64,000 nucleotides of DNA from assembly GCF_003149145.1 (NCBI RefSeq), contig NZ_QGDQ01000015.1:1-64000 (forward strand). The letters are read 5' to 3'. Positions 20,744 to 63,610 of this stretch are shown piece after piece. The notes under the pieces were generated by a model. The model searched no databases and was not told where the DNA came from. It was given only the letters and a program-made list of their open reading frames with translations. This stretch comes from Quadrisphaera granulorum (GTDB taxonomy: Bacteria > Actinomycetota > Actinomycetes > Actinomycetales > Quadrisphaeraceae). A program made the position numbers and the translations under genes. The first letter of the stretch is position 1; each line of letters opens with the position of its first letter.

Positions 20744-20801
20744 GCTCGCCTCCCTGCGTGTCACGGTGTCAGGGACACCGATCACGTTTGGGGGACCCGC
20801 T

Positions 20802-21872
20802 GTGCGCACCACCGGGTGGAGGGCCGCGGCGCTGAGCGCCGCACTGATTGCCACCACCGTGCTGGGGACCGCGGCGAGCGCCAGTGCGTACACCACCGGG
20901 GCGACGGCCACGACGGCTGCCACCGCGCCGCCGCAGGTCCAGCGCATCGCCGGTGACGACAGGATCGGCACCGCCGTCGCGGTGAGCCAGGCCGTGTTCA
21001 CCGACGACGACGGCGCCTACGCGGCCTTCATCGCCTCGGCCGCCAGCTGGCCCGATGCGCTCGCCGCCAGTGCCCTGGCTGCGCAGTACCGCGCACCGCT
21101 GCTGCTGGTGCCCGCCGACGGGCAGCTGCCCGAACAGGTCCGCGCCGAGCTGCACCGGCTCAAGGTGGAGCAGGTGTACGTGCTGGGCGGCGGCAAGTCC
21201 GTCAGTGACAGGATCAGCGCCCAGCTCGGCGACCTCGCGCTGGTGAAGCGCTTCGACGGTAACGACAGGTACGACACCGCCGGCTACGCCGCCAGCGTCC
21301 TCGCCGACCCGGGCAAGCCGCTGTACATCGCCTCGGGCGCTGGATTCGCCGATGCTCTCGGCGGAGGCGCCGCCGCCGGCGCCGTCGGGGGAGCCCTCGT
21401 GCTGACCGACCCCGCGCGCCTGCCGATGTCGCTGTCCGACGACATCAAGACCCTCGCGCCGAGCAGCGTCGTGGTGCTCGGCGGACCGGGCACCGTCTCC
21501 GACGCCGTGGTCGGCCAGCTCAAGACCCTGCTGCCCGGCACCCCCGTCACCCGTACCTACGGTGCCGACCGCTACGAGACCGCGGCCCGGACCAGCGCAC
21601 AGATCAACGGCCAGGGCAGCCCGTCCTCCAAGGCCGCGGACGGCGTGCAGAACCTCTCCGCGGTAATGCTGGCCAGTGGCACGAGCTTCCCCGACGGGCT
21701 TGCGGGAGCTGCCGTCTCAGGTCCCAGCGGCGTGCCGCTGCTGCTGACCGGCAAGGACTGCGTGCCCGCCTCCACGCTCGCCGAGGTCCGCAGGCTCGGG
21801 GCGCAGCGCGTCGTCGTCCTCGGTGGGCCCACCGTGGTGAGCCCTGCCGCGGCGGCTCTCAACCCTTGCTGA
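20802..21872 (+). CDS. Secreted cell-wall-binding repeat 2 (CWB2) protein
   Basis: 356 residues from the GTG at 20802 (GGGGGA precedes it; an earlier in-frame GTG is at 20766). A signal peptide (RAAALSAALIATTVLGTAASAS) is followed by three CWB2 units that start RIAGDDRIGTA, RFDGNDRYDTA and RTYGADRYETA, each with the usual later FADAL/LVVLGG-type elements. In Firmicutes such triplets bind anionic cell-wall polymers and anchor surface proteins. Here there is no additional effector domain, so the protein is only the binding module. Its last 14 bases overlap the convergent GGDEF gene. Confidence 0.8.
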   Translation: MRTTGWRAAALSAALIATTVLGTAASASAYTTGATATTAATAPPQVQRIAGDDRIGTAVAVSQAVFTDDDGAYAAFIASAASWPDALAASALAAQYRAPLLLVPADGQLPEQVRAELHRLKVEQVYVLGGGKSVSDRISAQLGDLALVKRFDGNDRYDTAGYAASVLADPGKPLYIASGAGFADALGGGAAAGAVGGALVLTDPARLPMSLSDDIKTLAPSSVVVLGGPGTVSDAVVGQLKTLLPGTPVTRTYGADRYETAARTSAQINGQGSPSSKAADGVQNLSAVMLASGTSFPDGLAGAAVSGPSGVPLLLTGKDCVPASTLAEVRRLGAQRVVVLGGPTVVSPAAAALNPC

Positions 21873-35279: not shown

Positions 35280-35343
35280 TTGATGGTCGCGCCCCGCGTC
35301 TCGCAGAGCTGGGAGCGACACGCCTCTACGCGTGAGCGGCCGC

Positions 35344-35396
35344 GTGCACAACTCCCATGATCACGATGAGTTCTGTGCACAGCGCCCATGATCACG
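35344..35396. repeat. CCCATGATCACG tandem doublet, copy 1
   Basis: Two direct copies of GTGCACARCKCCCATGATCACG (35344-35365 and 35375-35396), spaced 31 bp. The second overlaps the end of the ADP-ribosylglycohydrolase gene and supplies its TGA stop. Related doublets occur near 36890 and 43640. Confidence 0.7.
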
Positions 35397-47888: not shown

Positions 47889-50033
47889 GTGCTCGATGAG
47901 CTCGGCCCCGCTGGTGCGCCGGGCGTGCTCCTGCTGGCCGCCGCGGTGCTGTGGGCGCCGGGTGCGCTGCTCGGCCGGGCGCTCGGCCTGCGACGCCGAT
48001 GGGCGCTCGCGGGCGCGCCGGCGCTGACGTGGGGCGTGGTGGCCATCGGAGCGGTGGCCGTGCCGCGCGCCGGACTGCGGTGGGGGCCGACGACGGCGCT
48101 CGGCGTGCTGGCGATGGCCGTGGTGGTCGCGCTGCTGCTCCGGCGGCTCCCCTTGCGGCGCGCAGCCGCAGTGTCAGGCCGTCGAGGCCGAAGACGGCCT
48201 CCTGAACCTGACACTGCCCGACAACCTGACACTGCGGGTGGACCTGCGCTGTTCGTCCCGGCGCTGGGCTGCGTCCTGGCAGCGGTCGTCGTGGTGGGTG
48301 TCGCGTGGCGTGCGGGGCACCGCCTCGGCTCGATCGCGCAGACCTGGGACGCCGTCTACCACGCCAACCTCACGACCTTCATCGCCACCACCGGCGACAG
48401 CGACCCCGTGAGCGCGCCCAGCGCCCTGGCCAGCGCCGGGTGGCGCGACGTGCACACCTACTACCCCGACGCCCTCCACGCGGCGGCCGCCCTCGTGGTG
48501 CGGCTCACGGGCGCCGGCTCGGCGGCGGTGCTCGACGTCGTCGCGGCGCTCGTGGCGGGCGCGGTGCTGCCCGTCGCCGTCGGTGCGCTGGCGGGGGCGC
48601 TCGCCCCCACCCGCCGCAGCGTCGCCGCGGGGGTCGGGGCCGCGGTTTCGGTGCTGCCGGTGGCGGCGCCGTGGGACCAGTGGTGGCGCGGCGTGTGGAG
48701 CTACGGCGCGGCGCTGGCCACGGGGGTGCTCGTCGTGGCACTGGCCGTCAGGGCGCTGGAGGGCCGCCTGGTGCCGCACCGGCCGGTGTCCGCGGCGGTT
48801 GCGGTGGTGGTGGCGACGGCGGGGGTCGCCGGGCTGCAGCCGGCCGGTGTCGTCCTCGCCGGGGTCCTCGTGCTCGGGTGGGCGCTCGCACGGCTTGCCC
48901 TCGCACCGCTCCCGCCTGCCCATCGGCGGACGGCTCTGGGGACGGCGGTGGCGGGCACGCTGCTGCTGCCGCCCCTGGTGCTCGCGCTCGCGCGCTGGTC
49001 ACCGGCGCTCGGGAGCCTGGCCGCCTACGACTACACGAGCCGTCCGGCCACGGCCGACGGCCTGCGCGACACCCTGGAGTCTGTGCTCGGCGGCGTGCGG
49101 CGCGTCAGCCCCGGCTACGGCTTCGGGCTGCCGCCGCAGGGCGGGCAGTGGCTGCTCGCGGCCGTGGTGCTGGTCGCCGTCGTCGTCCTCCTGACCTCCC
49201 GCGCCGCCGCCTGGTTGGCCATCGTGTGGGTGTTGGCGCTGGCCGCCGCCGTCGCGACCGTCGTCCCGGTCGCGCCCCTCATCGGAGGCCTGCTCGGGGG
49301 ATCGGTCGGGGGAGCTGTCGGGACGGCGGCCGCCGACGCCCTGCGCTCGGTGACGTTGTTCTTCTACAACGCGCCGTTCCGCCTCATGGCCGTGCTCGGG
49401 GTGGTCGGCGCGGTGGTCGTGGGGGTCGCCGCGGCTCGATGCACCGATCTCGTGGCTCGTGTGCTCGCCCGGTGGCCACTGCCCGGCACCGGGCCCGCGC
49501 GGCTCGTCGCCGTCCTGCTCTCCGGGGTTCTCGCCCTCGTCGTCGCGGCCGCTGCCGTCTCCAGCACCGCGGGGCTCGCCGCACCGCGTCTGGCCGCCGG
49601 GTACGCCCCGCGCGTCACCGGGCCCGACCAGCTCGCCGTCATGGACCAGCTTGCGCGCCAGCTGCGCGACGACCCGCTGCCCGCGGGAGCCACGGTGGCC
49701 GCTGACCCCGTCGACGGGTCCGCGTGGTTGTACGCCCGCCACGACGTGCCGGTGCTGTTCCGCCACTACAGCGCCGGCCCCCTCACGCCGCCCGCGCAGC
49801 TCCTGCTCCAGAGCCTGCGCGACGTCGACACCGACGCGGACGTCCGCCAGGCCCTGCGCGACCTTCGGGTCTGCTACGTCTACTCCAGCGGGGTGTCCGT
49901 CTACGACTCCTCGGCACCCGCCCCCGGCTTCACCGACCTCGACGGGGTCGCAGCGCTGGAGCCGGTGGCGCGCGCGGGCAGCGCCGCGGCCTACCGGGTG
50001 CTCGTGCCGGGCACGCCCTGCGCCCCGTCCTGA
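47889..50033 (+). CDS. DUF6541 polytopic membrane protein, copy A
   Basis: 714 residues with about 14 hydrophobic segments and a globular C-terminal part. A conserved extracytoplasmic-type loop reads QTWDAVYHANLTTFIATTGD, then TYYPDALHAAAAL, features shared with the 51328 gene. Similar proteins are thought to be membrane glycosyltransferases or their partners in wall-polymer synthesis, although no reaction is established. GTG start. An inverted-repeat segment (48166-48237) has been inserted in frame between hydrophobic segments, encoding PEPDTARQPDTAGG. Confidence 0.7.
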   Translation: MLDELGPAGAPGVLLLAAAVLWAPGALLGRALGLRRRWALAGAPALTWGVVAIGAVAVPRAGLRWGPTTALGVLAMAVVVALLLRRLPLRRAAAVSGRRGRRRPPEPDTARQPDTAGGPALFVPALGCVLAAVVVVGVAWRAGHRLGSIAQTWDAVYHANLTTFIATTGDSDPVSAPSALASAGWRDVHTYYPDALHAAAALVVRLTGAGSAAVLDVVAALVAGAVLPVAVGALAGALAPTRRSVAAGVGAAVSVLPVAAPWDQWWRGVWSYGAALATGVLVVALAVRALEGRLVPHRPVSAAVAVVVATAGVAGLQPAGVVLAGVLVLGWALARLALAPLPPAHRRTALGTAVAGTLLLPPLVLALARWSPALGSLAAYDYTSRPATADGLRDTLESVLGGVRRVSPGYGFGLPPQGGQWLLAAVVLVAVVVLLTSRAAAWLAIVWVLALAAAVATVVPVAPLIGGLLGGSVGGAVGTAAADALRSVTLFFYNAPFRLMAVLGVVGAVVVGVAAARCTDLVARVLARWPLPGTGPARLVAVLLSGVLALVVAAAAVSSTAGLAAPRLAAGYAPRVTGPDQLAVMDQLARQLRDDPLPAGATVAADPVDGSAWLYARHDVPVLFRHYSAGPLTPPAQLLLQSLRDVDTDADVRQALRDLRVCYVYSSGVSVYDSSAPAPGFTDLDGVAALEPVARAGSAAAYRVLVPGTPCAPS
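48166..48237. repeat. In-frame inverted repeat with CCTGACACTG motif
   Basis: CCGCAGTGTCAGG (48166-48178) and its perfect reverse complement (48225-48237) bracket a segment that also contains another CCTGACACTG at 48207. The reading frame of the DUF6541 gene passes through without a stop. Confidence 0.65.
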
Positions 50034-50068
50034 GGTCGGTGTTCACCTGAGGGCCCTACAGTCCGGCC

Positions 50069-51223
50069 ATGGCGCCCGGGCAGCGCGGCGACGCAGCCGG
50101 CGACGCCGAACCGCTCGACCTGGACGATCCCCTCGACGACCTCGACTCCCTTGACGACCTCGACGACGAACCTCGGCCGCCGCGGGCCCGGCGGGCCTCC
50201 GGAGTGCGGGGTTTGGGGTGGTCGCGCTGGCCGGAGGCCTTCCCGGCGTGGGCGCGTGGGCCTGCCGCCGTCGTCGTCATGGTGCTCACCGCCGGTGCCG
50301 TCGGTGCGGTGGCGGGCAGCTCCCACCGCGTCGCCCTCGACCAGCGCACGGCCCTGGAACAGGCGCTGACCGTCGGCTACGCCTTCGCGTCGACCGGCGA
50401 GCCGCACGCCGGGACCATCGCCGGTGACGTGCATCTCGCGCTGGTCAACCACAGCGCGGATCAGCTGGCCGTGCGCTTGCAGGGCCTGTCGCTCCCGCAT
50501 CAGGGCACATCGGAACCGCCGGAGGAGGTGCGGATCGACCCGGGCGCGCTCGTGGCGGCCCCGCTGCCGGTGCGGGTCGACTGCGACGGTGTCCGCAGCG
50601 ACCCTCACCTGCGCGACGACGGCCTCGACGATCAGGACGACGACGGGAGCGTGATCACGGTCGACCCCGAGACCGGCCTCGTCGTCGGCGCAGCAACGTC
50701 AGCGACTTCGACGACCTCGACCGCAGCGCCGTCAGGCCCTACGGTGCTGCTCGCCTCGGTGCGCCCCAGCGCCGGAGGGTCCGCTGTCGACGTCCAGGTG
50801 CCTCTCCTCGACTCCGTCGCCGCCCGCATCGAGCAGGAGCTCAACGCCGCGTGCCAGGCGTCGCGTACCAAGGACCTGCAGACCGGTTGGCTGTGGCTCG
50901 ACGACGGGGCTCTGCGCGTGACCATCGCGGCCAAGGGCACCGGCGGGTCCGTGCGGCTCCAGCTCGACAGCACGGCCGGGCTTGACCCGACGTCCGACCC
51001 GCCGCTGCCGCGCGAGCTGAATCCGGGCGAGACCGTCGTCGTCGACATCCGGGTTCGCCCCCGCTGCGTCGTGGTCGGCGACGGTTCGATCAGCCGACTG
51101 GACCTGCAGGCGGTGGACTCCGACGGCTCCACCGTGTCGCTGGGGCGGCCGTTCTCCACCACGATCCCCCCGGCGGGGACGGCCCCGTGGCTCGCCCGGC
51201 AGGTGGCCCTCGCCTGCGGCTGA
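50069..51223 (+). CDS. Membrane-anchored hypothetical protein between DUF6541 genes
   Basis: 384 residues. The first 50 residues are strongly acidic with (D/L)DDL-type repeats, then a single membrane segment near 68-86 (GPAAVVVMVLTAGAVGAVAG), then an extracytoplasmic beta-rich part with a repeated pattern (GDVHLALVNHSADQL and later LRVTIAAKGTGGSVRL), suggesting two Ig-like modules. Cysteines occur once per module region. No family is recognised. It contains an in-frame DDQDDDG insert from the dispersed GATCAGGACGACGACG motif. The context suggests a wall-polymer-related role. Confidence 0.6.
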   Translation: MAPGQRGDAAGDAEPLDLDDPLDDLDSLDDLDDEPRPPRARRASGVRGLGWSRWPEAFPAWARGPAAVVVMVLTAGAVGAVAGSSHRVALDQRTALEQALTVGYAFASTGEPHAGTIAGDVHLALVNHSADQLAVRLQGLSLPHQGTSEPPEEVRIDPGALVAAPLPVRVDCDGVRSDPHLRDDGLDDQDDDGSVITVDPETGLVVGAATSATSTTSTAAPSGPTVLLASVRPSAGGSAVDVQVPLLDSVAARIEQELNAACQASRTKDLQTGWLWLDDGALRVTIAAKGTGGSVRLQLDSTAGLDPTSDPPLPRELNPGETVVVDIRVRPRCVVVGDGSISRLDLQAVDSDGSTVSLGRPFSTTIPPAGTAPWLARQVALACG

Positions 51224-51327
51224 GGTACTTCTCGCGCCCTGCTGGCCGACTGCTGGCCAACTGCCGCTCAACTGTGGGCCTGGGCGTTCGGCCTCGCCGA
51301 GGGCTGTCGCGTGGCTACGGTCGGTAG

Positions 51328-53520
51328 GTGGTGGGCTGGTCGGCTGCGGTCGCGCCCGCCGCTGTCGCCGCCGCCGTCCTGGTGGTGCCGGGCCTGCTGG
51401 TGGGGCGCGCCGCCGGCCTGCGCGGACTCGTATGGACGGGGGTCGCGCCCGCGCTGTCCACCGGGGTGGTCGCGCTCGGGGCGATCGGCGCTTCGCTGGC
51501 GGGATTCCGGTGGGGTCTGCTGGCGCTGGCGCTGGCCACCGCGCTCGCCGTCGCCGTCGCCCTGCCCGTGGGGGTGCTCAGCGGTGCGTTCACGACGCGA
51601 CGGCCGTCGCCCGGTGCTCGACGGCTGAGCAGCCGCGACGCGGCGGTCGCGCTGTCGGCGCTCGGCGGGCTGGCCGGCGGAGGCCTGCTTGCCGGCCGCC
51701 GGCTCATGTCCGCGCTGTGGGATCCGACCGCCGTGTCCCAGAGCTATGACGCGGTGTTCCACCTCAACGCTGTCCGCTGGGTCATCGACACCGGCGACGG
51801 CTCCTCGCTGCACCTGGGCCGCCTCACCAACCCGGGCGCCGCGACGTCCTTCTACCCCGCGGCCTGGCACGACGTCGTCTCGCTGGCCGCCATGACCAGT
51901 GGAGCCGCCGTCGACGTCTCCACCAACGCCACCGCCCTCGTCGTCGCCTTGGTGGTCTGGCCGTTGGGGTCGGTGGGTCTGGTCCGCGCGGTGCTCGGTC
52001 GACGGCCGGTGGCCCTCGCGGCCGCCGGGGCGCTCACTGCAGCGTTCACCAGCCAGCCGATCGCCCCCCTGGAGTGGGGCGTGCTCTACCCGACGTTGCT
52101 CACCAACAGCCTGCTGCCCGCACCGCTGGCACTGCTGGTGCTCACCGCCGACCGCACCCGCCCGCTGCGCCGCCGCCTGACGCTGCTGATCGTGGTGGCG
52201 GGGACCCTGCCGGGGCTGGCGCTCGCCCAGCCCAGCGGCGGGTTCGCGCTCGTGGCGCTGGCCCTGCCGCTCGGCGCGGCGGTCCTGCTGAGGACGACGA
52301 CGGCGTGGTGGCGCTCCGGTCAGCGGATCTTCGCGGTGGTGATGCCGGTGCTGGTGCTGGTCGTGGCGGTGCTCGCGTGGCGCGTCGTCGACGGGTCGGC
52401 GTCCGTGGTGAGCGCCCGGGCGACCCACTGGGAGCCCAAGGCCACCCTGCCCCAGGCCGTCGAGCAGGCTGTGCTGTTCAGCCACCTGAGCATCCCGAAC
52501 CCCATCCGGTGGGAGGTGACCCGTCCGCCGCTGTGGATGGCCGCCGCACTGGTGCTCTTCGGGCTGGCGCTGGCGGTGCGGCGGCGGCAGCTGCGGTGGG
52601 TCGCCGGGTCACACCTGGTGGCATCCCTGCTGTACGTGTGCGCGTGGGCCGTGCAGTCTCCGCTCACCCAGCGCCTCACCGGCTACTGGTTCAACGATGC
52701 GTACCGCGTGGCCGGGCTCACGGTCATCACCGGGTTGGTGCTGGCCAGTGCAGCGCTCTCGCTGGGACCCGCCGCGTTGCGCAGGTCTGTGCGGCGCCTG
52801 CAGCAGCTGGTCGAGGGGGCGCGCCGTCCGGCCCGCGACTCCGGACGCCGGGCGGGACCCGCGCCAGGACGAGGGACTGGGCGGCGGGCGGCTTCCGGCC
52901 GGCGGCGCGCGGCGCCGAGCCTGCAGCTGATCCCCGCGGACCGCTGGGCAGCCCTCACCACGATGAGCTCTGCGCTCGCGGTGCTCGTGGTGCTGGCCGG
53001 GGCGCGCGGCCCCGGGTACGCGGTGACGTACGGCTCCTTGTTCGCCAACTCCGTGGCGAGCGATGACACGCAGTACTCGGACGTGCTCGACGCCCCCGAG
53101 CGGGCGATGCTGAACCGGGTGCCTTCCGAGGTGCCGGCCGGGGTGATGGTGGCGGGCAACCCGTGGAACGGGTCCGGGTTCGTCTATGCCATCGCCGACC
53201 GGTTGACGCCGTTCCCGCACATGACGTCGACGTTCGACGCGGACCGGGCCCTGGTGGCCCTGCACCTGCGTGACGCCGCCACCGACCCGGAGGTCTGCGC
53301 CGCCGTGCAGCGGCTGCACCTGGGGTATGTCCTCGATTTCGGCACCTACTACCTGTGGGGCGGCGACGACCCGGAGGCCGGGCGAGACCGAAAGTACCCG
53401 GGCCTGCTCGACCTGGCGACGGCGCCGGGCTTCACGCTGGTCGACGCCCAGGGCCCCGACGTCAAGCTCTACAAGATCGACGCGTGCGGTGCGATCACGC
53501 CCGCGCCGTCGTCGTCGTGA
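51328..53520 (+). CDS. DUF6541 polytopic membrane protein, copy B
   Basis: 730 residues, about 14 hydrophobic segments, with the family loop SYDAVFHLNAVRWVIDTGD and FYPAAWHDVVSLAA, and a soluble end resembling copy A (VPAGVMVAGNPWNGSGFVYA). GTG start. A basic insert (about residues 490-530, Arg/Pro-rich) interrupts the membrane part. It ends with Ser-Ser-Ser and TGA in a GTCGTCGTCGTGATCC unit. With copy A and the membrane-anchored gene between them it forms an apparent three-gene set. Confidence 0.7.
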   Translation: MVGWSAAVAPAAVAAAVLVVPGLLVGRAAGLRGLVWTGVAPALSTGVVALGAIGASLAGFRWGLLALALATALAVAVALPVGVLSGAFTTRRPSPGARRLSSRDAAVALSALGGLAGGGLLAGRRLMSALWDPTAVSQSYDAVFHLNAVRWVIDTGDGSSLHLGRLTNPGAATSFYPAAWHDVVSLAAMTSGAAVDVSTNATALVVALVVWPLGSVGLVRAVLGRRPVALAAAGALTAAFTSQPIAPLEWGVLYPTLLTNSLLPAPLALLVLTADRTRPLRRRLTLLIVVAGTLPGLALAQPSGGFALVALALPLGAAVLLRTTTAWWRSGQRIFAVVMPVLVLVVAVLAWRVVDGSASVVSARATHWEPKATLPQAVEQAVLFSHLSIPNPIRWEVTRPPLWMAAALVLFGLALAVRRRQLRWVAGSHLVASLLYVCAWAVQSPLTQRLTGYWFNDAYRVAGLTVITGLVLASAALSLGPAALRRSVRRLQQLVEGARRPARDSGRRAGPAPGRGTGRRAASGRRRAAPSLQLIPADRWAALTTMSSALAVLVVLAGARGPGYAVTYGSLFANSVASDDTQYSDVLDAPERAMLNRVPSEVPAGVMVAGNPWNGSGFVYAIADRLTPFPHMTSTFDADRALVALHLRDAATDPEVCAAVQRLHLGYVLDFGTYYLWGGDDPEAGRDRKYPGLLDLATAPGFTLVDAQGPDVKLYKIDACGAITPAPSSS

Positions 53521-53643: not shown

Positions 53644-55014
53644 TCAGCGAGCGCGGACCAGGCCGAGCGCGCCCGCCGACGAGAAGCCTGGGAACACCTC
53701 CGCCAGCGACCCCGCGCCGCACCGCTTCTGCAGCACCTCGCCGATGACGTCGCGGTAGTCGGTGACGCTGGCGACGGCGCCGTCGTCCAGCGCCGACGCC
53801 GCCAGCCCGGGCCACTTCCCGTGCACCCGTCCGCCGACCACCCCGCCGCCGAGGGCGAGCATGAGGTTGCCGTGCCCGTGGTCGAGGCCGCCGGAGCCGT
53901 TCTCGCCGGCGCGCCGCCCGAACTCGCTGATGGTCAGCACCGTCACGCCGGACATGCGTGCGCCGAGGTCGGTGTCGAACGCCGCCAGCGCCGTCGACAG
54001 CTCGGCGAGCTTGTCCTTCATCCACCCGCCGCCGCCCGTGCCGAGGCCGGCGTGCATGTCCCAGTCGCCGGAGTCGACGGCGGCCACCTGCACGCCGATC
54101 CCCGCTTTGATCATCCGCGCGATGTCGCGGAGCGACGCGCCGAGGTCGCTGTCGGGGTAGCCGGACCCGGCGGATGTCGTCGCCAGCGTCCCCGAGAGCG
54201 TCGCGGCCGCCGCGAGCGCCGCTCGCCCCGACTCGGCGACCGTGGGCGGCCCCTCGGCGTGCAGCGCGGTGTAGGCCTTGGTCCAGCGGGCGCGCTCGAC
54301 GTCGTTGTTCGGCCCCTTCAACTCGAACCCTTCGAGCTTCTTGAGGGTGAGCTCCGGGGCGGGGCCGGCGAGCAGCGTCGGCGTCTGCGACCCGGTCAAC
54401 GACACCGCCTGGAACGTGCCCGCCGCGCCGCCGTTGACCGTGCGGGTGCCGAGCGTCCTGTCGAGCCAGCCCGTGCGCAGCGACGTGCCCGGCGCGGCCT
54501 TCTCCATGTCCTCCATGGCGGCGAAGTGGCTACGGCTCGCGCCGGGGAGCCCCACGCCGTGCACGGCGCCGAGCCGTCCGGCCTTCCACAGCGGCAACAG
54601 CGGCGCCATCGCCGGGTGCAACCCGAACGTGCCGTCCAGCCCCAGCAGCGACGACTGCGGGACGGCGATGCTCGGCCGCAGCCGGTAGTAGTCGGGGTCG
54701 CCACCGGGGACGACGGCGGACAGCCCGTCCATGCCGCCGCGCAGGCTGAGCACCACGAGCACGTCACCGGTGTAGCCGGGTGCGGCGAACGCCACCTGCG
54801 TGTGCACGTTCTCGGTGGCCACGAGGGTCATCGCGCCGATGCCGAGCGCCTTGAGCAGCGAGCGGCGCGAGAAGCTCCCGGCGTCGCGGCTGGCCGGTCC
54901 GTCGGGGCAACCGCAGCCGTCCACCGCGGTGGACGACGACGGTGACGACGACGGCGACGGCAATGACGACGGCGACGGCGCCGCGGCGCGCGGGCGGGGC
55001 AGGACGGGGTCCAT
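53644..55014 (-). CDS. DUF1501 family protein (Tat-exported)
   Basis: 456 residues. The N-terminal 45 residues are Pro/Ser-rich and contain CGC; then a twin-arginine signal SFSRRSLLKALGIGAMTLVA. The rest has an alkaline-phosphatase/sulfatase-like fold: LVVLSLRGGMDGLSAVVPG at the start, DSGDWDMHAG, and TISEFGRRAGENGSGGLDHG near the end, which fit the metal-binding positions of this family. Enzymatic function is unproven. ATG at 55014 shares one base with the DUF1800 stop, the usual arrangement of this pair. Confidence 0.85.
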   Translation of the reverse strand: MDPVLPRPRAAAPSPSSLPSPSSSPSSSTAVDGCGCPDGPASRDAGSFSRRSLLKALGIGAMTLVATENVHTQVAFAAPGYTGDVLVVLSLRGGMDGLSAVVPGGDPDYYRLRPSIAVPQSSLLGLDGTFGLHPAMAPLLPLWKAGRLGAVHGVGLPGASRSHFAAMEDMEKAAPGTSLRTGWLDRTLGTRTVNGGAAGTFQAVSLTGSQTPTLLAGPAPELTLKKLEGFELKGPNNDVERARWTKAYTALHAEGPPTVAESGRAALAAAATLSGTLATTSAGSGYPDSDLGASLRDIARMIKAGIGVQVAAVDSGDWDMHAGLGTGGGGWMKDKLAELSTALAAFDTDLGARMSGVTVLTISEFGRRAGENGSGGLDHGHGNLMLALGGGVVGGRVHGKWPGLAASALDDGAVASVTDYRDVIGEVLQKRCGAGSLAEVFPGFSSAGALGLVRAR

Positions 55015-56498
55015 CAGCGCTCCATGTGGCCGGGCGAGTTGAGGATGGTCGCGACGACGCTGTTCAGCCGCCATCCGACCCACTGGTCGTTGGCTTTCAG
55101 CGCGTCACCGGCGCCGTGCTCGGTGAACGCCAGCAGCGCGGCGCGCTCGGTGGTGGTGGGCGCGCGGCCCAGCAGCCGCTGCACCAGCGCGTCGATGAGC
55201 CCGCCGAACGTCGTCGGCAGCGGGGAGGGCAGCACGCTGGTGGCGGCGGGGCGGACGAACGTGTTGGGCCACCACCCGTGGGCGATGGCCGTGGTGGCGT
55301 TCCAGCGGTTCATCGTCGAGCCCGCCGAGCGCCAGGCCGCGGCCACGTCGGGGTAGCCGTTGGGCGGCGCCCAGGCCAGCGGCCAGTGGCCGACCTCGCG
55401 GGTCTGCCAGTACAGGTCGTCGATGCCGCCCCACCCGTCCGGTCCGGGCATCGCGCCGGTCGTCCGCACGGCCGCGAGGAAGCCCTCCAGCGGCCGGCGG
55501 GTCTTCTGGCCCGTGGAGGTCCAGAACTCGTCGGAGGTGAACAGCGCCCTCAGCACCGGGACGATCTGCGTGCCGCTGCTGCGGTAGACGCCGGCGAGCC
55601 GGGTGACCAGGGACGACGGCGGGGTGTCCGCCACGAAGCGGATCGCGAGCTTGCGCGCGATCGCCGTCGCCGTCGCCGGGTGCCGGGCGAGGTGGCGCAG
55701 CAGGTCCGTGGCCACGGCTTCGCCCTCGGCGGCGGAGTGCGCGGGGGTCGACCAGTCGAGCACGGTCGCGGCGGAGGTGTCGTGGCGGTTCGCGTCGTAC
55801 GTGTAGGTGCCGGTCTTGCTGTCGACCGTCAGACCGGTGAAGACCCGGGCGGCCGCGCGCACCCCGGCTTCGCCGTAGCCCGCGTCGACGCCCACGGTGT
55901 GCAGCTCCATGACCTCGCGCGCGTAGTTCTCGTTGGGGGCCTTCTTCGTGGAGGAGGCGTTGTCGAGGTAGCGCAGCATCGCCGGGTGCTTGGCCGAGGC
56001 CACGAGCATATCCTCGAAGGAGCCGAGAGCGTGCTGGCGGATGACGGCGGCGTCGTAGTGGTGCCGGTTGTCCCACACGTCGGAGCTGGGGCAGGTGACG
56101 TTGAGGTGGTTGGACCAGAAGTCGCAGACCACCTCCAGCAGCTGGCGGCGGCTCCACGTGTACCGCGCGACCGTGAGCATTCCGAGCTCGAACATCGTGT
56201 CCCAGTTGCCGAACGTGCCGCTGGAGCGGACCTCGGTGATCGGGCGGCGCACCTTGGTGAAGCGGGCCGCGTAGCCGTCACAGGCGGCGTCGTCGAGACG
56301 CGCGGGGTCGAGCTGAGCCTCGAACCACGCCTGCGGGTCGCGTCGCACCTCCTCGACCAGGCCCGGTGCCTCGCCCCAGGTGAGGCGGCGGACGAGGTGA
56401 CGCACGCCCGCCTCGCCCAGCGGCGTCGGCAGGTGCGCGCCCGGCACGTGGCGCGCCAGGCGCGCGTGGAGCGCGGCGAGCTGAGGGCTGAGCGCCAC
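55014..56498 (-). CDS. DUF1800 family protein
   Basis: 494 residues. Conserved features are HLVRRLTWG near the start, LLEVVCDFWSNHLNV, NYAREVMELHTVGVDAGY, then ARVFTGLTVD and RRPLEGFLAAVRTTG. The family always travels with DUF1501 and its function is unknown; the pair may act on surface polymers or proteins. The GTG at 56498 was chosen over an ATG 13 codons upstream because AAGGAGG lies at good distance. No clear signal peptide, so it may be exported with its Tat partner, which is inference. Confidence 0.85.
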   Translation of the reverse strand: MALSPQLAALHARLARHVPGAHLPTPLGEAGVRHLVRRLTWGEAPGLVEEVRRDPQAWFEAQLDPARLDDAACDGYAARFTKVRRPITEVRSSGTFGNWDTMFELGMLTVARYTWSRRQLLEVVCDFWSNHLNVTCPSSDVWDNRHHYDAAVIRQHALGSFEDMLVASAKHPAMLRYLDNASSTKKAPNENYAREVMELHTVGVDAGYGEAGVRAAARVFTGLTVDSKTGTYTYDANRHDTSAATVLDWSTPAHSAAEGEAVATDLLRHLARHPATATAIARKLAIRFVADTPPSSLVTRLAGVYRSSGTQIVPVLRALFTSDEFWTSTGQKTRRPLEGFLAAVRTTGAMPGPDGWGGIDDLYWQTREVGHWPLAWAPPNGYPDVAAAWRSAGSTMNRWNATTAIAHGWWPNTFVRPAATSVLPSPLPTTFGGLIDALVQRLLGRAPTTTERAALLAFTEHGAGDALKANDQWVGWRLNSVVATILNSPGHMER

Positions 56499-56616
56499 CG
56501 TGCCTCCTTGCCGCGTGCATCGTCCGAGCGTGTTCACCGGCGACGCTAGGTGAGGACATGTGACGATCGGTGCACTTCCGGACGATCCGCGCGCCGCGTC
56601 GCCCGTCCGGCCCCGC

Positions 56617-56642
56617 GACGATCGTCATCAGAGACGATCGTC
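56617..56642. promoter_or_regulatory. Paired GACGATCGTC palindromes before leaderless CWB2 gene
   Basis: The perfect palindrome GACGATCGTC occurs at 56617-56626 and 56633-56642 within a 16-bp direct repeat (GACGATCGTCATCAGA). The second copy ends 16 bases before the chosen GTG start of the CWB2 gene. It looks like a two-site operator, though a longer coding start at 56560 would put it inside the gene. Confidence 0.4.
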
Positions 56643-56658
56643 ATCAGAGAGGACGGCT

Positions 56659-57711
56659 GTGGCTGACCGGATCGGTGGCGACGACCGCTACGCCACCGCC
56701 GCGCTCATCGCGACCGAGGTCGTGTCCGTGCTGCGCGCTGCGGGGCAGACCCCCGGCGGCGTGCTGCTCGCCAGCGGGGAGGACGCCTCCGGCGGCATCG
56801 ACGCCCTCGCCGCCTCCTTCCTCGCGGGGCACCTGCGGGCGCCGCTGCTGCTCACCGCCCGCGGAGCGCTGCCCGCTCCCACGGCGACGGCGCTGCGCGA
56901 CCTGCTGCCCCGGATCGCTCCCACGCAGGGACCGCCTGCCGTGCACGTCATGGGCGGCACCGCTGTGGTCACTGCCGACGTCGAGCGCGCCGTCGCGGCC
57001 CTCGGCGCTCGCGTGGTGCGCGTGGCCGGTGACGACCGGTACGCCACGGCCGCAGCCGCCGCGCGCCTCGGCGCCTCGACGGCCCAGACCTACGCGCTGC
57101 TCGGCGGTGGCAGCGGGGGAGCGAAGCGCACCGCGATCCTCGCCAGCGGCACCAACCCCGCCGACGCGCTCTCCGCCGGCCCGCTCGCCTGCGCCGCCGG
57201 GGTGCCGCTGCTCCTCACCCAGCGCGACGCGCTGCCCGACGCGACCCGTTCCGCGCTTGCGGAGCTCCAGGTGCGCCAGGTCGTGACCCTCGGCGGACCG
57301 GCCGCCATCGCGACGTCGGTGCTCGACGCGCTCGTCGGGCTCGGCCTGTCCGTCCTGCCCGTGCGGGGAGACGACAGGTTCGACACGGCCGCGGTGCTCC
57401 TGGCCCTGGCCTGCGCCCCGCAGCTCGACGGCACTGCGAAGGACGACGACGTCGGCGGCTTCGGCATCCCCTTCGACGGCGCCACCACCGGCTACCTGGC
57501 CAACGGCGTCCGCTTCCCGGACGCGCTGGCCTGCGGCCCGCTCGCTGGCCTGGCGCGCCGGCCGCTGTTCGTCACGAGCCCGACCGCCCTGGCCGAGGCG
57601 ACGCGCTCGGTGCTGCCGGGCACGGGCGTGCGGTCGCTGATCGGTGTCGGCCGCTCGGGCGCGCTGCCTGACGCGGTGCTCGACGCCGCCGTCGCCGTCC
57701 TGCCCCGGTAG
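56659..57711 (+). CDS. CWB2 repeat protein without recognisable signal peptide
   Basis: 350 residues from GTG 56659 (GAGAGGA precedes it). The sequence starts directly in the first CWB2 unit (RIGGDDRYATA), followed by RVAGDDRYATA and PVRGDDRFDTA units. No signal peptide or membrane helix is seen, even if translation starts at the GTG at 56560, which only adds an Arg/Pro-rich leader. CWB2 domains normally act outside the cell, so the protein is either exported by another route, has lost its leader, or has a different role. A KDDDVGG insert is of the GAC type. Confidence 0.7.
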   Translation: MADRIGGDDRYATAALIATEVVSVLRAAGQTPGGVLLASGEDASGGIDALAASFLAGHLRAPLLLTARGALPAPTATALRDLLPRIAPTQGPPAVHVMGGTAVVTADVERAVAALGARVVRVAGDDRYATAAAAARLGASTAQTYALLGGGSGGAKRTAILASGTNPADALSAGPLACAAGVPLLLTQRDALPDATRSALAELQVRQVVTLGGPAAIATSVLDALVGLGLSVLPVRGDDRFDTAAVLLALACAPQLDGTAKDDDVGGFGIPFDGATTGYLANGVRFPDALACGPLAGLARRPLFVTSPTALAEATRSVLPGTGVRSLIGVGRSGALPDAVLDAAVAVLPR

Positions 57712-57889: not shown

Positions 57890-58340
57890 CGTCGTGTCGC
57901 CGCCCTCGAAGGGGCCGTCGCTGCCGTCGGGCTGGCAGCGACGGAGGCAGCGCCGGCGCCAGCCTCCGCAGCGGTCGGCCCGTCGTCGTCGTCCTCCTCT
58001 GCCGAGGTTTCCCCGGAGAGCAGTTCTGGGCACTGGACGAGCTGCGCCGACAGGTCACCGCGCACGACCAGGGTTGGGGAGCGGTGCTGGGCAGTCCCGT
58101 GCGGCTGCTGCTGGTGCGGGTGCTGCGCAGCGCCACTGGCTCGGCGACCGCCGCCGAGCTGGCCGACGACGAAGCGCTCGGCACGAGCGGGCAGGTCTAC
58201 CACCACGTGCGTCAGCTCGTGGCTGCCGGCTGGTTGAGGACGGCGGCGCGCGGCCGCTACGCCGTGCCTGCGGAGCGCGTCGTCCCGCTCCTGGTCGCGC
58301 TGGCGCTGGCCGGCGCACACCGCTACCGGTCGTGCGCGCC
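57890..58340 (+). pseudogene. ArsR-like winged-helix regulator, frameshifted
   Basis: A winged-helix domain is readable as GAVLGSPVRLLLVRVLRSA, then GTSGQVYHHVRQLVAAGWL and GRYAVPAERVVPLLVAL. Just upstream in the same frame is EQFWALDELRRQV, which fits this family, but the expected N-terminal helix (VAALEGAVAAVGLAA) is in another frame. The shift falls in or next to a GTCGTCGTCGTC tract near 57981-57993. No good start codon exists for the joined product. It lies directly before the hipB-like remnant. Confidence 0.5.
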
Positions 58341-58623
58341 ATGGCAGCGGTCGGCGAGCACCTGGCGCACTGGCGCAAGCTCCACCGACTCACGGTCGAG
58401 GAGGTCGCGGACCGAAGCGGGCGTCAGCGGCCGCACGGTGCTGCGACTCGAGGGCGGCTCGGGAGCAACGCTGGAGAACGTCTTGCGGGTGGCTCGTGCA
58501 CTGGGAGTCCTGGACGAGATCGTCCGTTCGCTGGACCCGTACTCCACGGACGTCGGGCGGGCCCGCGCCGACGAGCAGCTTCCGCGACGCGTGCGCCACC
58601 CCCGCAGGCGGGCCGACACGTGA
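58341..58623 (+). pseudogene. HipB-like Xre antitoxin with frameshift
   Basis: ATG 58341 opens MAAVGEHLAHWRKLHRLTVE, then EVADRSG, the first half of an Xre helix-turn-helix. After about 58423 the frame changes: VSGRTVLRLEGGSG, ATLENVLRVARALGVL and LDPYSTDVGRARADEQLPRR continue in another frame. One extra G in GAAGCGGGCGTC explains it. The tail matches HipB-like antitoxins. The TGA overlaps the GTG of the hipA remnant. Confidence 0.65.
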
Positions 58624-58983
58624 GGGGCGCAGTGGGAGGTGCCCCAGCTGTCGGCGTCGTCGAGTCGATCGGTGGGCGTGACGTCGCCGTCGGAACGCTC
58701 TTGCCCCACCGCACTCGCGGGCGAGACTCGGCCAGCTTCGCCTACCGCGCGGAGTTCCTGGCAGACGCAGAGGCTCACGCCCTCGACCCGGCACTGCCGC
58801 TGCGCGGTGGCAGACGCCTTCAGGGTCACCAGCGCTGAGGCAGAACGCGTGGCGGGCCAGGTGGCTGAGGCGGTTGCGCAGTGGCGCCTCGTCGCCGCCC
58901 GTCACGGGCTGAGTCGGCCTGCGGTGGAGAGCATGGCGCCTGCCTTCTCTGCCCTCGCCGAGGTGCCTCACGCTGACGTCTGA
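58620..58983 (+). pseudogene. HipA kinase remnant with internal deletion
   Basis: GTG 58620 begins a HipA N-terminal piece (DVAVGTLLPHRTRGRDSASF, then AYRAEFLADAEAHALDPALPL). About 60 codons in, the sequence jumps in another frame to a HipA C-terminal piece (AFRVTSAEAERVAGQVAEAV, then AARHGLSRPAVESM). The entire kinase core of about 300 residues is missing, so no toxin can be made. It overlaps the hipB remnant as an intact operon would. Strong sign of a decayed toxin-antitoxin locus. Confidence 0.65.
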
Positions 58984-59193: not shown

Positions 59194-61401
59194 ATGCAGC
59201 CACTTCGAACGCCCATCGGACTGTCGGTGGTGCCCCCTAACGTCTCTTCCATGACCTGGACCGGCACCGAAGCGCCCCACGGTGGCGCCGACGACGCCGG
59301 CCTGCCCACCAGCGCCCCCACCTCTTCCCCACCTTGGGAAGGGTGGGAGCCCCTGGCCCCCGGCGCCCTGGGCGCCCCCACTGCTCCTGCGAGGCAGGCA
59401 GGCGCGGACCCCACCTCACAGTCCGGCCTGTTCGCTGACCTGCCCCCACTGCCCCTGACCGGGCCCCTCGCCGATGCCCTGCACACCACCCGTACCGCCC
59501 TGGACGACGCGACCACCGCCGCCTGCTACCTGTCCACCACCGGCGCCCACCAGCGCGTCGAAGCGATTCAGCGGATCGCTGAGGCCCGCGACCTCACCGA
59601 CGCCGTCCTGCTGCGCCTGCTGGCGACCTTCACGCCCGACGACCTGCGCACCGTCGGCGCCACCAACCTCGTCGACCTGGTGCTGACCCACACCGGCTCC
59701 AGCCCCCAACGCGCCAACACCGAAGTCAAACTCGCCGCCGCTCTGACCGCCCCACCCCAGCACCCGCTCACCGAAGCGAATGAGGGTGATCAGGACGACG
59801 ACGGCGACGCGACCGCCGACTCCGATGCTGACGCTGATCCCGACACGGCCGCTGACAGCGCCGAGGATGCCGCCGGACCCGCAGCAGGACCAGCCGCTGG
59901 ACTCCCAACTGGGCCGGCGGCGGGCCCGGCAGCGGGGTCCTCCGCCGTCGCCCTCGGACTGCTCGGCGAAGCCCACGCCGCGGGGCGCCTGTCCACCGAT
60001 GTGGCCTCCCTGGCCCAGCGCACCATCGCCAGCCTTCCCGCCCGCATCCGCCGCGAACACGGCGCCACCGCCGACGCCACCCTCGCCCGATCCCTACCGG
60101 GCTTGACTCATGCTCAGGCCGCGATCGTGTGCACCACGTTGGCGCACACGTTGGACCCTGATCGCGCCGACCGCGGTTTCGACCCCGAAGACCTGGACCG
60201 GCAGTACTTGAACGTCACCGTCCACGCCGACGGCACCGTGGAGTTCCGCGGCCGGTTGGACCCCGTGGCCGGGGCGGAGTTCAAAGCCGCCATCGACGCC
60301 GCCTCCAAACCACTGCCCACGGTCCACGCGCCGGTCGCCCCAATCCAGAGCCCCGACCAGAGCCTCGACCAGATGCCGGGCCAGGAACCTCTCGACGGCC
60401 TCGACGCTGACGGCGACCGCGACGGCCGCGCAGGCGGCGGCTTCTCCGGCGACTCGACCAGCACTTCTACCGCCAACGCTGGTGCTACTGGTGGTGGCGC
60501 TGGTGCTCCTGCTGGTGGTGCTCCTGCTGGCGGTGCCGGTGCTGCTGCTGGTGGTGCTGCGGGCGCGGGCAGTGTGCCGGTGCGTGACCTGCGCCCGGCG
60601 CCGCTGCGCCGCGCGCACGCCTTCGCTGAACTGGTCCGCCTGGCCCGCGGCAGCGACGGCACCATCGGTGGGGAAGGTGCCCGCGTCATCGTCACCACCA
60701 GCGAGCAGGCTCTGGCGGGGACCCCGGGTGCGGAACCGGGGCACTGCGAGACCACCAACCGGTCGTTGTCGACGGCAGCGCTGCGGATGGTGGCGTGCAC
60801 CGGGTCCCTGCAGGCGGTGGTGCTCTCCTGTGAAGGCGCCGACGCCAAGGTGCTGGCGTTGGGGCGGGCGGTGCGACTGTTCACCGCCGGTCAGCGCCGG
60901 GCGATGCTGGCCCGTGACGGCGGGTGCGCTATCCCAGGCTGCACCGCCCCACCGGGGATGTTAGAGGCCCACCACGTGTGGGAGTGGGCCGCCGGAGGCC
61001 TGACCGACGTCGACAGTGGGGTGCTGCTGTGCATCCGCCACCACATCCTGGTCACGTTGGGGGTGTGGGGGGTGCGGATGGTCGACGGCGTGCCGCAGAT
61101 CCGGCCGCCGCGGGCGGTGGACCCGCTGCAACGGTGGGTGATCAACCCGCGACGGTCCTTACGAGAACAGACGGTGCGGCAGCTCGAGCTGGCGATCCCC
61201 GCCCAGGGCAGACGTGCCGGTAGCGGAGCGCGACGGGCAGGTGCTGGTGGTGACCCACCAGGGCCATCGGGACCGCCTCCGCCTTCGCCCCCACAACATC
61301 AACATCAACATCGTGATCCGTCCGACATCGCCGACCCTGATGTCGGGGTCGACGCGGGATGCCCGGACATCTCCTCTCGCCACGGCACGTGTGAGTGCTG
61401 A
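59194..61401 (+). CDS. DUF222 / HNH endonuclease (13E12 family)
   Basis: 735 residues. The DUF222 region is split in two by a low-complexity insert (DQDDDGDATADSDADADPDT, then Ala/Gly/Pro repeats) at about 195-250, and again by a Gly/Ala-rich stretch near 430-465. The HNH motif at about 570-615 reads GCAIPGCTAPPGMLEAHHVW, then GLTDVDSGVLLCIRHH, with zinc-binding Cys and catalytic His. Numerous in actinobacteria and thought to be mobile. ATG 59194 is the longest start; ATG 59251 is an alternative. Confidence 0.8.
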   Translation: MQPLRTPIGLSVVPPNVSSMTWTGTEAPHGGADDAGLPTSAPTSSPPWEGWEPLAPGALGAPTAPARQAGADPTSQSGLFADLPPLPLTGPLADALHTTRTALDDATTAACYLSTTGAHQRVEAIQRIAEARDLTDAVLLRLLATFTPDDLRTVGATNLVDLVLTHTGSSPQRANTEVKLAAALTAPPQHPLTEANEGDQDDDGDATADSDADADPDTAADSAEDAAGPAAGPAAGLPTGPAAGPAAGSSAVALGLLGEAHAAGRLSTDVASLAQRTIASLPARIRREHGATADATLARSLPGLTHAQAAIVCTTLAHTLDPDRADRGFDPEDLDRQYLNVTVHADGTVEFRGRLDPVAGAEFKAAIDAASKPLPTVHAPVAPIQSPDQSLDQMPGQEPLDGLDADGDRDGRAGGGFSGDSTSTSTANAGATGGGAGAPAGGAPAGGAGAAAGGAAGAGSVPVRDLRPAPLRRAHAFAELVRLARGSDGTIGGEGARVIVTTSEQALAGTPGAEPGHCETTNRSLSTAALRMVACTGSLQAVVLSCEGADAKVLALGRAVRLFTAGQRRAMLARDGGCAIPGCTAPPGMLEAHHVWEWAAGGLTDVDSGVLLCIRHHILVTLGVWGVRMVDGVPQIRPPRAVDPLQRWVINPRRSLREQTVRQLELAIPAQGRRAGSGARRAGAGGDPPGPSGPPPPSPPQHQHQHRDPSDIADPDVGVDAGCPDISSRHGTCEC

Positions 61402-61709
61402 GGTGCGCTGCGACCTGCTGCTCAGCCGGCCGCCGGTCAGCGCTGCCCAGCGGCGCCTCCGTCCGAGAGCGGGCCGGCCCGCGTCATGCCGAGTCACGGG
61501 CTACCTGGTGCAGACAGCTCGCTCGCTCGCGATGAGAGCTCAAGGTCGACAGGAATCGACGGTCCCTCGCGTCCGTCCGGATCTCGACCGGTCACGTCTC
61601 GACCGTTCCGAGAGGATCTGCCCGTCGGCGCCGTCAGAAGGCCCCGGTGATCCGGCGCGGGAGATCGAGTGTCCGTGCCGCTCCGCGGGGCGCCGTCTAC
61701 GGTGGGCTC
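61402..61709. other. 308-bp intergenic region with no gene seen
   Basis: Between the HNH gene and the GT2 pair. The short direct repeat TCTCGACCG occurs twice near 61581-61605. No hairpin with long arms or promoter-like AT-rich block could be found; the promoter of the GT2 pair should lie in its right part. Confidence 0.5.
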
Positions 61710-62687
61710 GTGTCAGCTCAGCTCCGCGTCGTCGCCGTCGTGGTCGCGCACAACAGGCGCGAACTGCTCCTGGCCTGCCTGAGGGCGCTGGCGACGCAGA
61801 AGCGCCCGGTCGACCTCGTCGTCGTCGTCGACAACGCCTCTCACGACGGGTCCGCTGATGCTGCGGTGCGTCTCGCGCACGAGCTCGACCTGCCGCTCGA
61901 CGCGGTCCGGCTTGCCCGCAACACCGGCGGGGCCGGTGGCTTCGCTGCTGGCCTCGCGCGCGCTGTGGCCGGTCACGCGGCCGACCGCGTGTGGCTCATG
62001 GACGACGACACCATCCCCTCGCCCACGGCCCTGGGGGAGCTGCTCGCCGTCGACGAGCGCTACCAGTGGCTCGGCGGCGCCCGCCCGGCTGTCACCGCGA
62101 GTCGCGTCGTGTGGACCGACGGCCGCGACCACCCCATGAACACCCCCCGGCCCCGGCCGCTGGCCCGCACGGTGGACAAGCGGCTGTCCGCGCGGGCCGG
62201 TGCGGTGCCGGTGCGGTCGTCGTCGTTCGTGTCGATGCTCGTCGACGCGTCCGCCGTCCGCCGTCACGGCCTGCCCGTGGCCGACTACTTCCTCTGGAAC
62301 GACGACTTCGAGTACTCCACCCGCCTCCTGCGACACGGCGTGGGGCTGTACGTGCCCACCTCCGTGGTGGAGCACCGCACGAAGACCTTCGGCTCCACCG
62401 ACGCCGACCCCGGCGAGCGGTTCCGCTGGGAGGTCCGCAACAAGATCTGGATGTTCACGCGCTCCGGTGGTCTTGCCTGGTGGGAGAAGCTTCTCTACGG
62501 CGGCTCCAGCGTGCGCCGGTGGGTGCGGACGTTCCAGCGGTCGCAGGCGCCGGAGGTGCTGTGGGCGGCGGTGCGTGCCGGTGTCCGTGAGGCGCTGAAG
62601 CCGCCGCGCACCACCGCGCAGGTGCTCTCCGGGCTCGGGCCGGTCAGCGACCAGGCGGCCGGCCTGGAGGCCGGCACCTGGCGATGA
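61710..62687 (+). CDS. Glycosyltransferase family 2 (GlfT/rhamnosyltransferase-like)
   Basis: 325 residues, GT-A fold. The donor-binding start is VVAVVVAHNRRELLLACLRA and VVVDNASHDGS; RNTGGAGGFAAGLARA and the metal site WLMDDDTIPSP are as in galactofuranosyl/rhamnosyl transferases, as is YFLWNDDFEYSTRLLRHG. It probably extends an arabinogalactan-like or other wall galactan. GTG start. Its stop overlaps the following GT2 ATG (ATGA). Confidence 0.85.
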   Translation: MSAQLRVVAVVVAHNRRELLLACLRALATQKRPVDLVVVVDNASHDGSADAAVRLAHELDLPLDAVRLARNTGGAGGFAAGLARAVAGHAADRVWLMDDDTIPSPTALGELLAVDERYQWLGGARPAVTASRVVWTDGRDHPMNTPRPRPLARTVDKRLSARAGAVPVRSSSFVSMLVDASAVRRHGLPVADYFLWNDDFEYSTRLLRHGVGLYVPTSVVEHRTKTFGSTDADPGERFRWEVRNKIWMFTRSGGLAWWEKLLYGGSSVRRWVRTFQRSQAPEVLWAAVRAGVREALKPPRTTAQVLSGLGPVSDQAAGLEAGTWR

Positions 62688-63610
62688 CCTCCCCGTCCCC
62701 CCAGCAGCCACCCCAGCCGTTCTCCCTGCTGCTCCCGGTCTACCGCCGCGACAGCCCCGCCTTCCTGCGCCGCGCGTTCGCGTCGGCCACGCACGAGCAG
62801 ACCCGGCCGCCGGCCGAGGTCGTGCTCGTGCGCGACGGCCCCGTGCCCGACGAGCTGGCCGCCCTCCTCGACGAGCTCACCGCCACCTCGAGCGTGCCGG
62901 TGGTGCGCGTCGACCTGCCCGTCAACCGCGGCCTCGCCGTGGCGCTGGAGGCGGGCCTCGCGCGCTGCACCCACGAGATCGTGGCCCGGATGGACGCCGA
63001 CGACGTCTCCCTCCCGCACCGCTTCGCCGTGCAGCTGCCGCTGCTCGACGGCGAGGTCGACACCTGCGACGTGGTCGGCTCGGCCCTGGAGGAGTTCTCC
63101 GGTGGCCCGTCGGACCAGGACGCTCACGATGATCAGGACGACGACGACGGCGCGTCCGGCGCAGGCGAGACCACGCTCGCGGTGCGCACGCCCCCGGCCG
63201 GACACGACGCCATCGCCGTCCGCGCCCGTTTCCACAGCCCGTTCAACCACCCCACGGTGGTGTACCGCCGCTCCGCGGTGGCGCGCGCCGGCGGCTACCG
63301 CGACCTGCCGCTCCTCGAGGACTACTGGCTCTTCACCCGCATGATCGCCACCGGATCCAAGGCCGCGAACGTGCAGGAGCCGCTGGTCCGCTACCGCGTG
63401 GGCGCCGGGGCGTACGCGCGCCGCGGGGGGCTGCGGCTGCTGCGCAGCGAGCTGGAGCTGCAGCGCCACCTGCTGGCGGAGGGCTTCACGACGCCGGCGC
63501 AGTTCGCGCGGAACGTGGTGGTGCGCGGCGGCTACCGGGCGGTGCCGCAGGGGCTGCGGCGCCTGGCGTACCGCGCGGTGTTCACGCGCCGCCCGCCGTC
63601 GTCGTCCTGA
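62684..63610 (+). CDS. Glycosyltransferase family 2
   Basis: 308 residues, GT-A fold. Donor site FSLLLPVYRRDSPAFLRRAF, VLVRDGPVPDE, then ARMDADDVSLPHRFAVQ (the metal-binding DxD as DADD) and later ARAGGYRDLPLLEDYWLFTR. A DDQDDDDG insert in a surface loop is encoded by a GATCAGGACGACGACGACGG unit, and the last codons are Ser-Ser-Ser-TGA in a CCGTCGTCGTCCTGATCC unit: two copies of one motif in opposite orientation in one gene. Translationally coupled to the upstream GT2. Confidence 0.85.
   Translation: MTSPSPQQPPQPFSLLLPVYRRDSPAFLRRAFASATHEQTRPPAEVVLVRDGPVPDELAALLDELTATSSVPVVRVDLPVNRGLAVALEAGLARCTHEIVARMDADDVSLPHRFAVQLPLLDGEVDTCDVVGSALEEFSGGPSDQDAHDDQDDDDGASGAGETTLAVRTPPAGHDAIAVRARFHSPFNHPTVVYRRSAVARAGGYRDLPLLEDYWLFTRMIATGSKAANVQEPLVRYRVGAGAYARRGGLRLLRSELELQRHLLAEGFTTPAQFARNVVVRGGYRAVPQGLRRLAYRAVFTRRPPSSS

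Follow-up and report, generated by a model that had tools for sequence, protein, structure and literature searches.

Within the window, by which we mean the whole 64,000-nucleotide stretch of Quadrisphaera granulorum DNA that was analysed, one gene encodes three CWB2 units and no signal peptide (Table 1), and its orthologues lead a galactofuran synthesis and export cluster in related genomes. CWB2 is known as an anchor on the outer surface of the cell. The missing signal peptide makes a cytosolic location likely for this protein, and from the gene context we infer galactan as its ligand and GlfT2 or Wzm-Wzt as its partner. Our main reading, which we hold with a probability of about 0.4, is a stand-alone cytosolic CWB2 triplet that would bind the lipid-linked galactan and in this way serve control of the chain or its passage through the ABC exporter.

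Table 1. Positions in the window of the CWB2 gene, its upstream elements and its neighbours.
Feature	Position	Strand	Basis
Signal-less CWB2 triplet protein	56659..57711	+	Open frame, 350 aa, GTG start
CWB2 unit 1, core motif PLLL	56668..56985	+	PF04122 match in genome search; motif scan
CWB2 unit 2, core motif PLLL	57019..57321	+	PF04122 match in genome search; motif scan
CWB2 unit 3, core motif PLFV (deviates from strict P[ILV][ILV][LV])	57364..57678	+	PF04122 match; motif scan
Shine-Dalgarno-like GAGAGG before GTG start	56647..56652	+	Read from sequence
Exact 16-bp tandem repeat, each copy holding palindrome GACGATCGTC	56617..56648		Direct comparison; strain-specific
Divergent-promoter-like block ACGCTAGGTGAnGnCnTGTGACGATC between DUF1800 and CWB2	56543..56568		Orthologue alignment; single genome copy
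GT2 glycosyltransferase, best NCBIfam match GlfT1 (below cut-off)	61704..62687	+	Follows CWB2 directly in G002, G004, G008
Second GT2 glycosyltransferase of galactan cluster	62684..63610	+	Profile matches, relatives' gene order
DUF1800 gene (PF08811), divergent from CWB2, no signal peptide seen	55014..56501	-	Pfam, N-terminus inspection
DUF1501 gene (PF07394), twin-arginine-like N-terminus SRRSLLKALG	53644..55083	-	Pfam, N-terminus inspection

The CWB2 triplet and its missing signal peptide

The protein begins with VADRIGGDDRYATA. Pfam family PF04122 matched it in three stretches, the best of which starts at residue 4, with a whole-protein E-value of 8.4e-40 and a score of 135.6 bits against a curated cut-off of 24.9, the units coming in threes. 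An AlphaFold model built from an 11-row alignment had a mean pLDDT of 87.2 and a pTM of 0.87. Its top 11 Foldseek matches were all CWB2 proteins of C. difficile (E 1.7e-18 to 7.9e-15), with query-normalised TM scores of 0.73-0.79 for these chains, and VIA-align placed the CWB2 regions of Cwp6, Cwp8 and SlpA on the model with Z 34.5-38.2 and about 300 aligned residues spanning model residues 1-350, the next-best fold reaching Z 5.5. Since the CWB2 matches extend over the full model chain, the entire 350-aa chain is, as a predicted fold, a CWB2 triplet without any other domain. Cwp6, Cwp8 and SlpA thus share with it the same three tandem units and the same predicted pseudotrimer fold across the whole chain; however, they are secreted and carry additional domains, and the N-terminal signal peptide that marks secreted, wall-anchored CWB2 proteins is missing from the window protein. 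A P[ILV][ILV][LV] motif in each unit is described as required for anchoring (PMC4973711). Three strict motifs were found in 6 of 48 other sampled triplets, and the window protein is strict in units 1 and 2 only. Its orthologues within the genus contain up to 3 cysteines, compared to 0-1 in 41 of the 48 other triplets, and the orthologue in G008 has none; these sequence counts are a weak hint of a cytosolic location.

We judged the presence of a signal peptide from hydrophobicity and by visual inspection. By this measure the three other CWB2 proteins of the window, at 20766-21872 (+), 32625-35351 (-) and 37854-40442 (-), have signal-like hydrophobic N-termini. Across the genome there are 12 CWB2 proteins, of which 9 have a signal-like N-terminus, 2 are ambiguous (C17:109756 and C54:3312) and the window protein has none. 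The CWB2 protein at G000:C17:109184-109756 (L181) has a first CWB2 unit that apparently starts partway through, owing to a frameshift, a truncation or a join in the draft assembly. Outside the genus, a hydrophobic stretch (12-residue mean >=1.98) was found ahead of the first unit in all 27 CWB2 loci sampled from 396 genomes of the phylum at E <= 1e-30, a sample in which 2 loci extend past the locus boundary and some first units escaped the unit finder.

The sole longer in-frame start of the window gene, a GTG at 56560, would add 33 aa that are polar and pass through the 16-bp repeat; this extension contains nothing hydrophobic, its highest Kyte-Doolittle mean over 12 residues being 0.02. In four orthologues the frame is closed by a stop shortly above the start, at 10 codons in G008, 11 in G010, 16 in G004 and 20 in G001, so that no in-frame signal peptide can fit. 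In G002, G003 and G005 the frame stays open for 26-35 codons, yet no signal-like stretch lies in phase; none was seen in any of the 7 genomes tested. An upstream start or frameshift that supplies a signal peptide was rejected on these grounds. AGGAGG stands at the place matching the Shine-Dalgarno sequence in G001, G002 and G004, and is absent in G003, G005, G008 and G010. The first-pass annotation of this DNA had described three complete CWB2 units close to the start and no signal peptide, set against the other three CWB2 proteins of the window, and had named an upstream frameshift or start as what would overturn it; the description agrees with these results.

Orthologues occur in all 5 other genomes of the genus (6 of 6 including that of the window) with 72-80% identity, and two further genera of the family are represented by an orthologue with 60% identity in G008 and a fragment at a contig end in G010. 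Searched at E <= 1e-50, 396 genomes of the order yielded the orthologue in only 7, all of the same family. Pairwise dN/dS among the orthologues, by the Nei-Gojobori method without GC correction, ranged from 0.14 to 0.66 over 21 pairs, and judged by this comparison the signal-less gene is under purifying selection. When 56 triplets were placed in a tree, a PIG-L-CWB2 fusion of G008 grouped with the 7 signal-less orthologues at an SH-aLRT of 99, separate from all sampled secreted triplets; this tree came from a quick search whose sole support values are SH-aLRT, 11 of its rows carry composition flags, and one of its branches is long. The fusion (C1:584106-585116; L080:8086-9780, - strand) joins a PIG-L deacetylase domain to a CWB2 triplet near GT4 and Wzx homologues, and since it opens directly on the PIG-L domain (Pfam residues 5-127) there is no room for a signal peptide there either. 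One clade of orthologues together with a signal-less fusion suggests a single loss of export, with retention inside the cell thereafter. When the fusion was used as a query against 396 genomes of the phylum, matched query ranges started at residue 115 at the earliest, so that at most the last residues of the PIG-L domain were covered. An Agromyces CWB2 protein (L023) continues into an AHPDDE-like stretch, in which Pfam gave no PIG-L domain.

A search for leaderless CWB2 homologues had also been proposed; the orthologues of the family and the G008 fusion are of this kind, and every one of the 27 loci sampled outside the genus has its hydrophobic stretch. The same annotation expected a cytoplasmic CWB2 role to be new. 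Such a role is plausible because there is no export signal and no upstream signal peptide emerged from the orthologues, and the neighbouring galactan genes suggest what it might consist in. Phage endolysins of C. difficile, however, are already known to contain remote CWB2-like domains that are leaderless (PMC9045149), and a missing signal peptide alone is, by that analogy, not unprecedented. The binding domain of one such endolysin, CD16/50L, is likewise a remote CWB2 relative without a secretory signal, but it is shorter, forms homodimers, is fused to a hydrolase and is released by a holin (PMC9045149). Apart from this endolysin, a partial literature search returned neither a signal-less or cytosolic CWB2 protein nor a link between CWB2 and galactan.

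The galactofuran synthesis and export cluster

The two glycosyltransferase genes near the end of the window are followed beyond it by Glf, GlfT2, Wzm and Wzt (C15:67190-72184). In G001-G004 the co-directional order is CWB2, a hydrolase in some genomes, GlfT1-like, GT2, Glf, GlfT2, Wzm and Wzt, with CWB2 as the first gene of the cluster in these relatives. In G002 all seven genes are consecutive on one strand, and the aligned parts of CWB2 and the next glycosyltransferase lie 46 nt apart. In G008 only the two glycosyltransferases directly follow CWB2, and Glf and GlfT2 are found about 14 kb further on. The Glf match was above the TIGR00031 cut-off and the GlfT2 match above those of PF19320 and PF17994, while the names GlfT1, Wzm and Wzt were below NCBIfam cut-offs, the best names for Wzm and Wzt being galactan or teichoic export. 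Glf, GlfT2, Wzm and Wzt are thus found together, as in a GlfT2-type galactofuran biosynthesis and ABC-export cluster. Wzt is 255 aa long and consists of the ABC domain only, with no fused carbohydrate-binding domain. The mycobacterial galactan pathway has the same gene set (Glf, GlfT1, GlfT2, Wzm-Wzt; PMC10951656); the available text of that source names no CWB2 protein, whereas here CWB2 heads the cluster in relatives.

Among 13 genomes of the family, the CWB2 orthologue was present in 8 of the 9 with GlfT2 and in none of the 4 without it (one-sided Fisher ~0.007, a value that ignores relatedness; the assemblies G012, G010 and G007 are fragmented). GlfT2 itself was found in 29 of 59 relatives overall and the signal-less CWB2 protein is limited to this family, so galactan export needs no such protein in general.

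The spacing in the window strain speaks against the galactan reading, as CWB2 and the GlfT1-like gene are separated there by about 4 kb that contain a large ORF and the remnants of regulators. Within this interval, 58084-58840 (+) begins as an HTH_20-like regulator, the first part of which is kept between CWB2 and the glycosyltransferase in G001 and G003; what comes after it we take to be a broken XRE/HipA-type pair split over frames. The 735-aa ORF at 59194-61401 (+), presumably HNH/DUF222-like, was not matched by anything in the equivalent intervals of the relatives that were compared. The place between CWB2 and the first glycosyltransferase is taken in G001 and G003 by a secreted beta-lactamase-family hydrolase; a secreted PF00144 protein of this family (L077:10004-11176, with matches in G003 and G005) directly follows CWB2 in 3 of 6 genomes of the genus. 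A histidine kinase and a LuxR-type response regulator (C15:64262-66948) lie between the second GT2 gene and Glf in the window strain, and response-regulator-like matches were also seen near the galactan cluster of G008.

Possible roles of the protein

Under the main reading, a CWB2 triplet that is no longer exported would remain in the cytosol and bind the polysaccharide of its own cluster, most likely the lipid-linked galactofuran chain that GlfT1 and GlfT2 would make from UDP-Galf, the product assigned to Glf. It would then act in chain-length control or in passing the chain on to Wzm-Wzt for export, and would thereby do in trans the job of the carbohydrate-binding domain that is fused to some O-antigen Wzt proteins. 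This role fits because a cytosolic CWB2 triplet would be encoded together with GlfT2 and with a Wzt that lacks such a domain. Galactan is assembled on the cytoplasmic side of the membrane, and Wzm-Wzt carries it out (PMC10951656). In some Wzt proteins the completed chain is recognised by a fused domain, which also works in trans as a separate protein (PMC9445017). The likeness to that C-terminal domain lies in the proposed role only, that of a cytosolic polysaccharide recogniser for Wzm-Wzt; the known domain is a jelly-roll fused to Wzt, whereas here a CWB2 fold is encoded by a separate gene and Wzt has only its ABC domain. Regulation of galactan size through GlfT2 and Wzm-Wzt is itself a hypothesis under study (PMC10951656). 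A wider version, which we regard as rather doubtful, would have the whole clade act inside the cell as a stand-alone subunit that recognises the polymer during galactofuran assembly and its export by Wzm-Wzt, and that supplies in trans the carbohydrate-binding function missing from the short Wzt, in which case secreted and intracellular CWB2 proteins may recognise the same wall polymer from both sides of the membrane.

We know of no established CWB2 ligand in Actinobacteria. A conserved signal-less CWB2 protein within a galactan synthesis and export cluster offers a candidate ligand for the actinobacterial family, and it suggests a way of probing how a galactan exporter that has no fused carbohydrate-binding domain selects and gauges its polymer. 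The ligand known from C. difficile counts, by analogy, against the galactan reading: CWB2 triplets bind a secondary wall polymer, which in that species is PSII rather than galactan, an anionic phosphate polymer bound weakly with millimolar affinity (PMC4973711).

The head-to-head pairing of CWB2 with DUF1800-DUF1501 also counts against galactan, and the strongest rival builds on it. Here the signal-less CWB2 protein, along with the signal-less DUF1800 protein, would fold in the cytosol, be exported in complex with DUF1501 as a Tat substrate, and then bind the wall. In each of the 8 genomes that have CWB2 as well as DUF1800, the two genes are divergent; a twin-arginine-like N-terminus was seen on DUF1501 in 6 of 6 genomes examined and a signal-less start on DUF1800 in 7 of 7, and DUF1501 is predicted to be Tat-exported elsewhere (PMC5122149). 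We consider such hitchhiking, through a putative complex, unlikely, since G006, G011 and G012 have DUF1800-DUF1501 but no orthologue of CWB2, and since the CWB2 paralogues of this genome that are secreted carry signal peptides of the ordinary kind. A cytosolic protein that serves something other than galactan is improbable to a similar degree: it might bind a small sugar, a nucleotide-sugar or another envelope precursor, or scaffold glycosyltransferases. The PIG-L fusion, as closest relative of the clade and with GT4 and Wzx homologues nearby, hints at an amino-sugar substrate, and the millimolar affinity for PSII is in keeping with this alternative, but the direct downstream neighbours in relatives are galactofuran genes.

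Export without a leader by a route other than Tat, through cell lysis or holin-like release followed by action on the wall, has its precedent in CD16/50L, which leaves the cell through a holin (PMC9045149). We give it little weight, as no gene for a holin or for lysis was found next to the CWB2 gene and the protein has no enzymatic domain; searches of PHROGs, phage and plasmid sequences returned distant CWB2 relatives only, and among 50,697 phage records 7 matched the protein, all below 60% identity. That the gene is a decayed or misread secreted CWB2 gene, with a wrong start or a lost signal peptide, would suit a family that is otherwise secreted and a window gene that can be extended in frame; given the upstream stops in four orthologues, the lack of signal-like stretches in phase, the AGGAGG in three relatives and the purifying selection, it is very improbable.

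The upstream region and divergent neighbours

Ahead of the gene, two copies of a 16-bp sequence (56617-56632 and 56633-56648) match exactly, and the direct repeat with GACGATCGTC palindromes noticed in the first pass is therefore real. The motif is not rare, since the window has 12 sites at <=1 mismatch (5.3 +/- 2.3 expected) and the 4.88-Mb genome has 30 exact sites; the tandem pairing is the unusual feature. In a check for coding location, loci were available for 15 of these 30 sites, and all 15 scored inside an open frame, even both window sites upstream of the CWB2 gene, so that the check set no site apart. The specific regulation proposed for the palindrome pair found no support: the pair is missing upstream of all 7 orthologues and of the PIG-L fusion gene, the 8 other regions compared, so we rejected it as a conserved regulatory element, and a different block, ACGCTAGGTGAnGnCnTGTGACGATC, is the conserved one. 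The repeat is probably a recent local tandem duplication in a divergent promoter region, as far as the compared sequences tell, and a regulatory role in this strain alone is conceivable.

The ACGCTAGGTGAnGnCnTGTGACGATC block has a close form in G000, G001, G002, G004 and G008, is diverged in G003 and G005, was not seen in G010, and is unique in the window's genome at <=3 mismatches. Because it sits between the divergent pair, it may serve DUF1800, CWB2 or both. On the far side of DUF1501, 47889-53520 (+) encodes two DUF6541 membrane proteins around a 384-aa protein, an arrangement that is kept beside DUF1501 in the genus.
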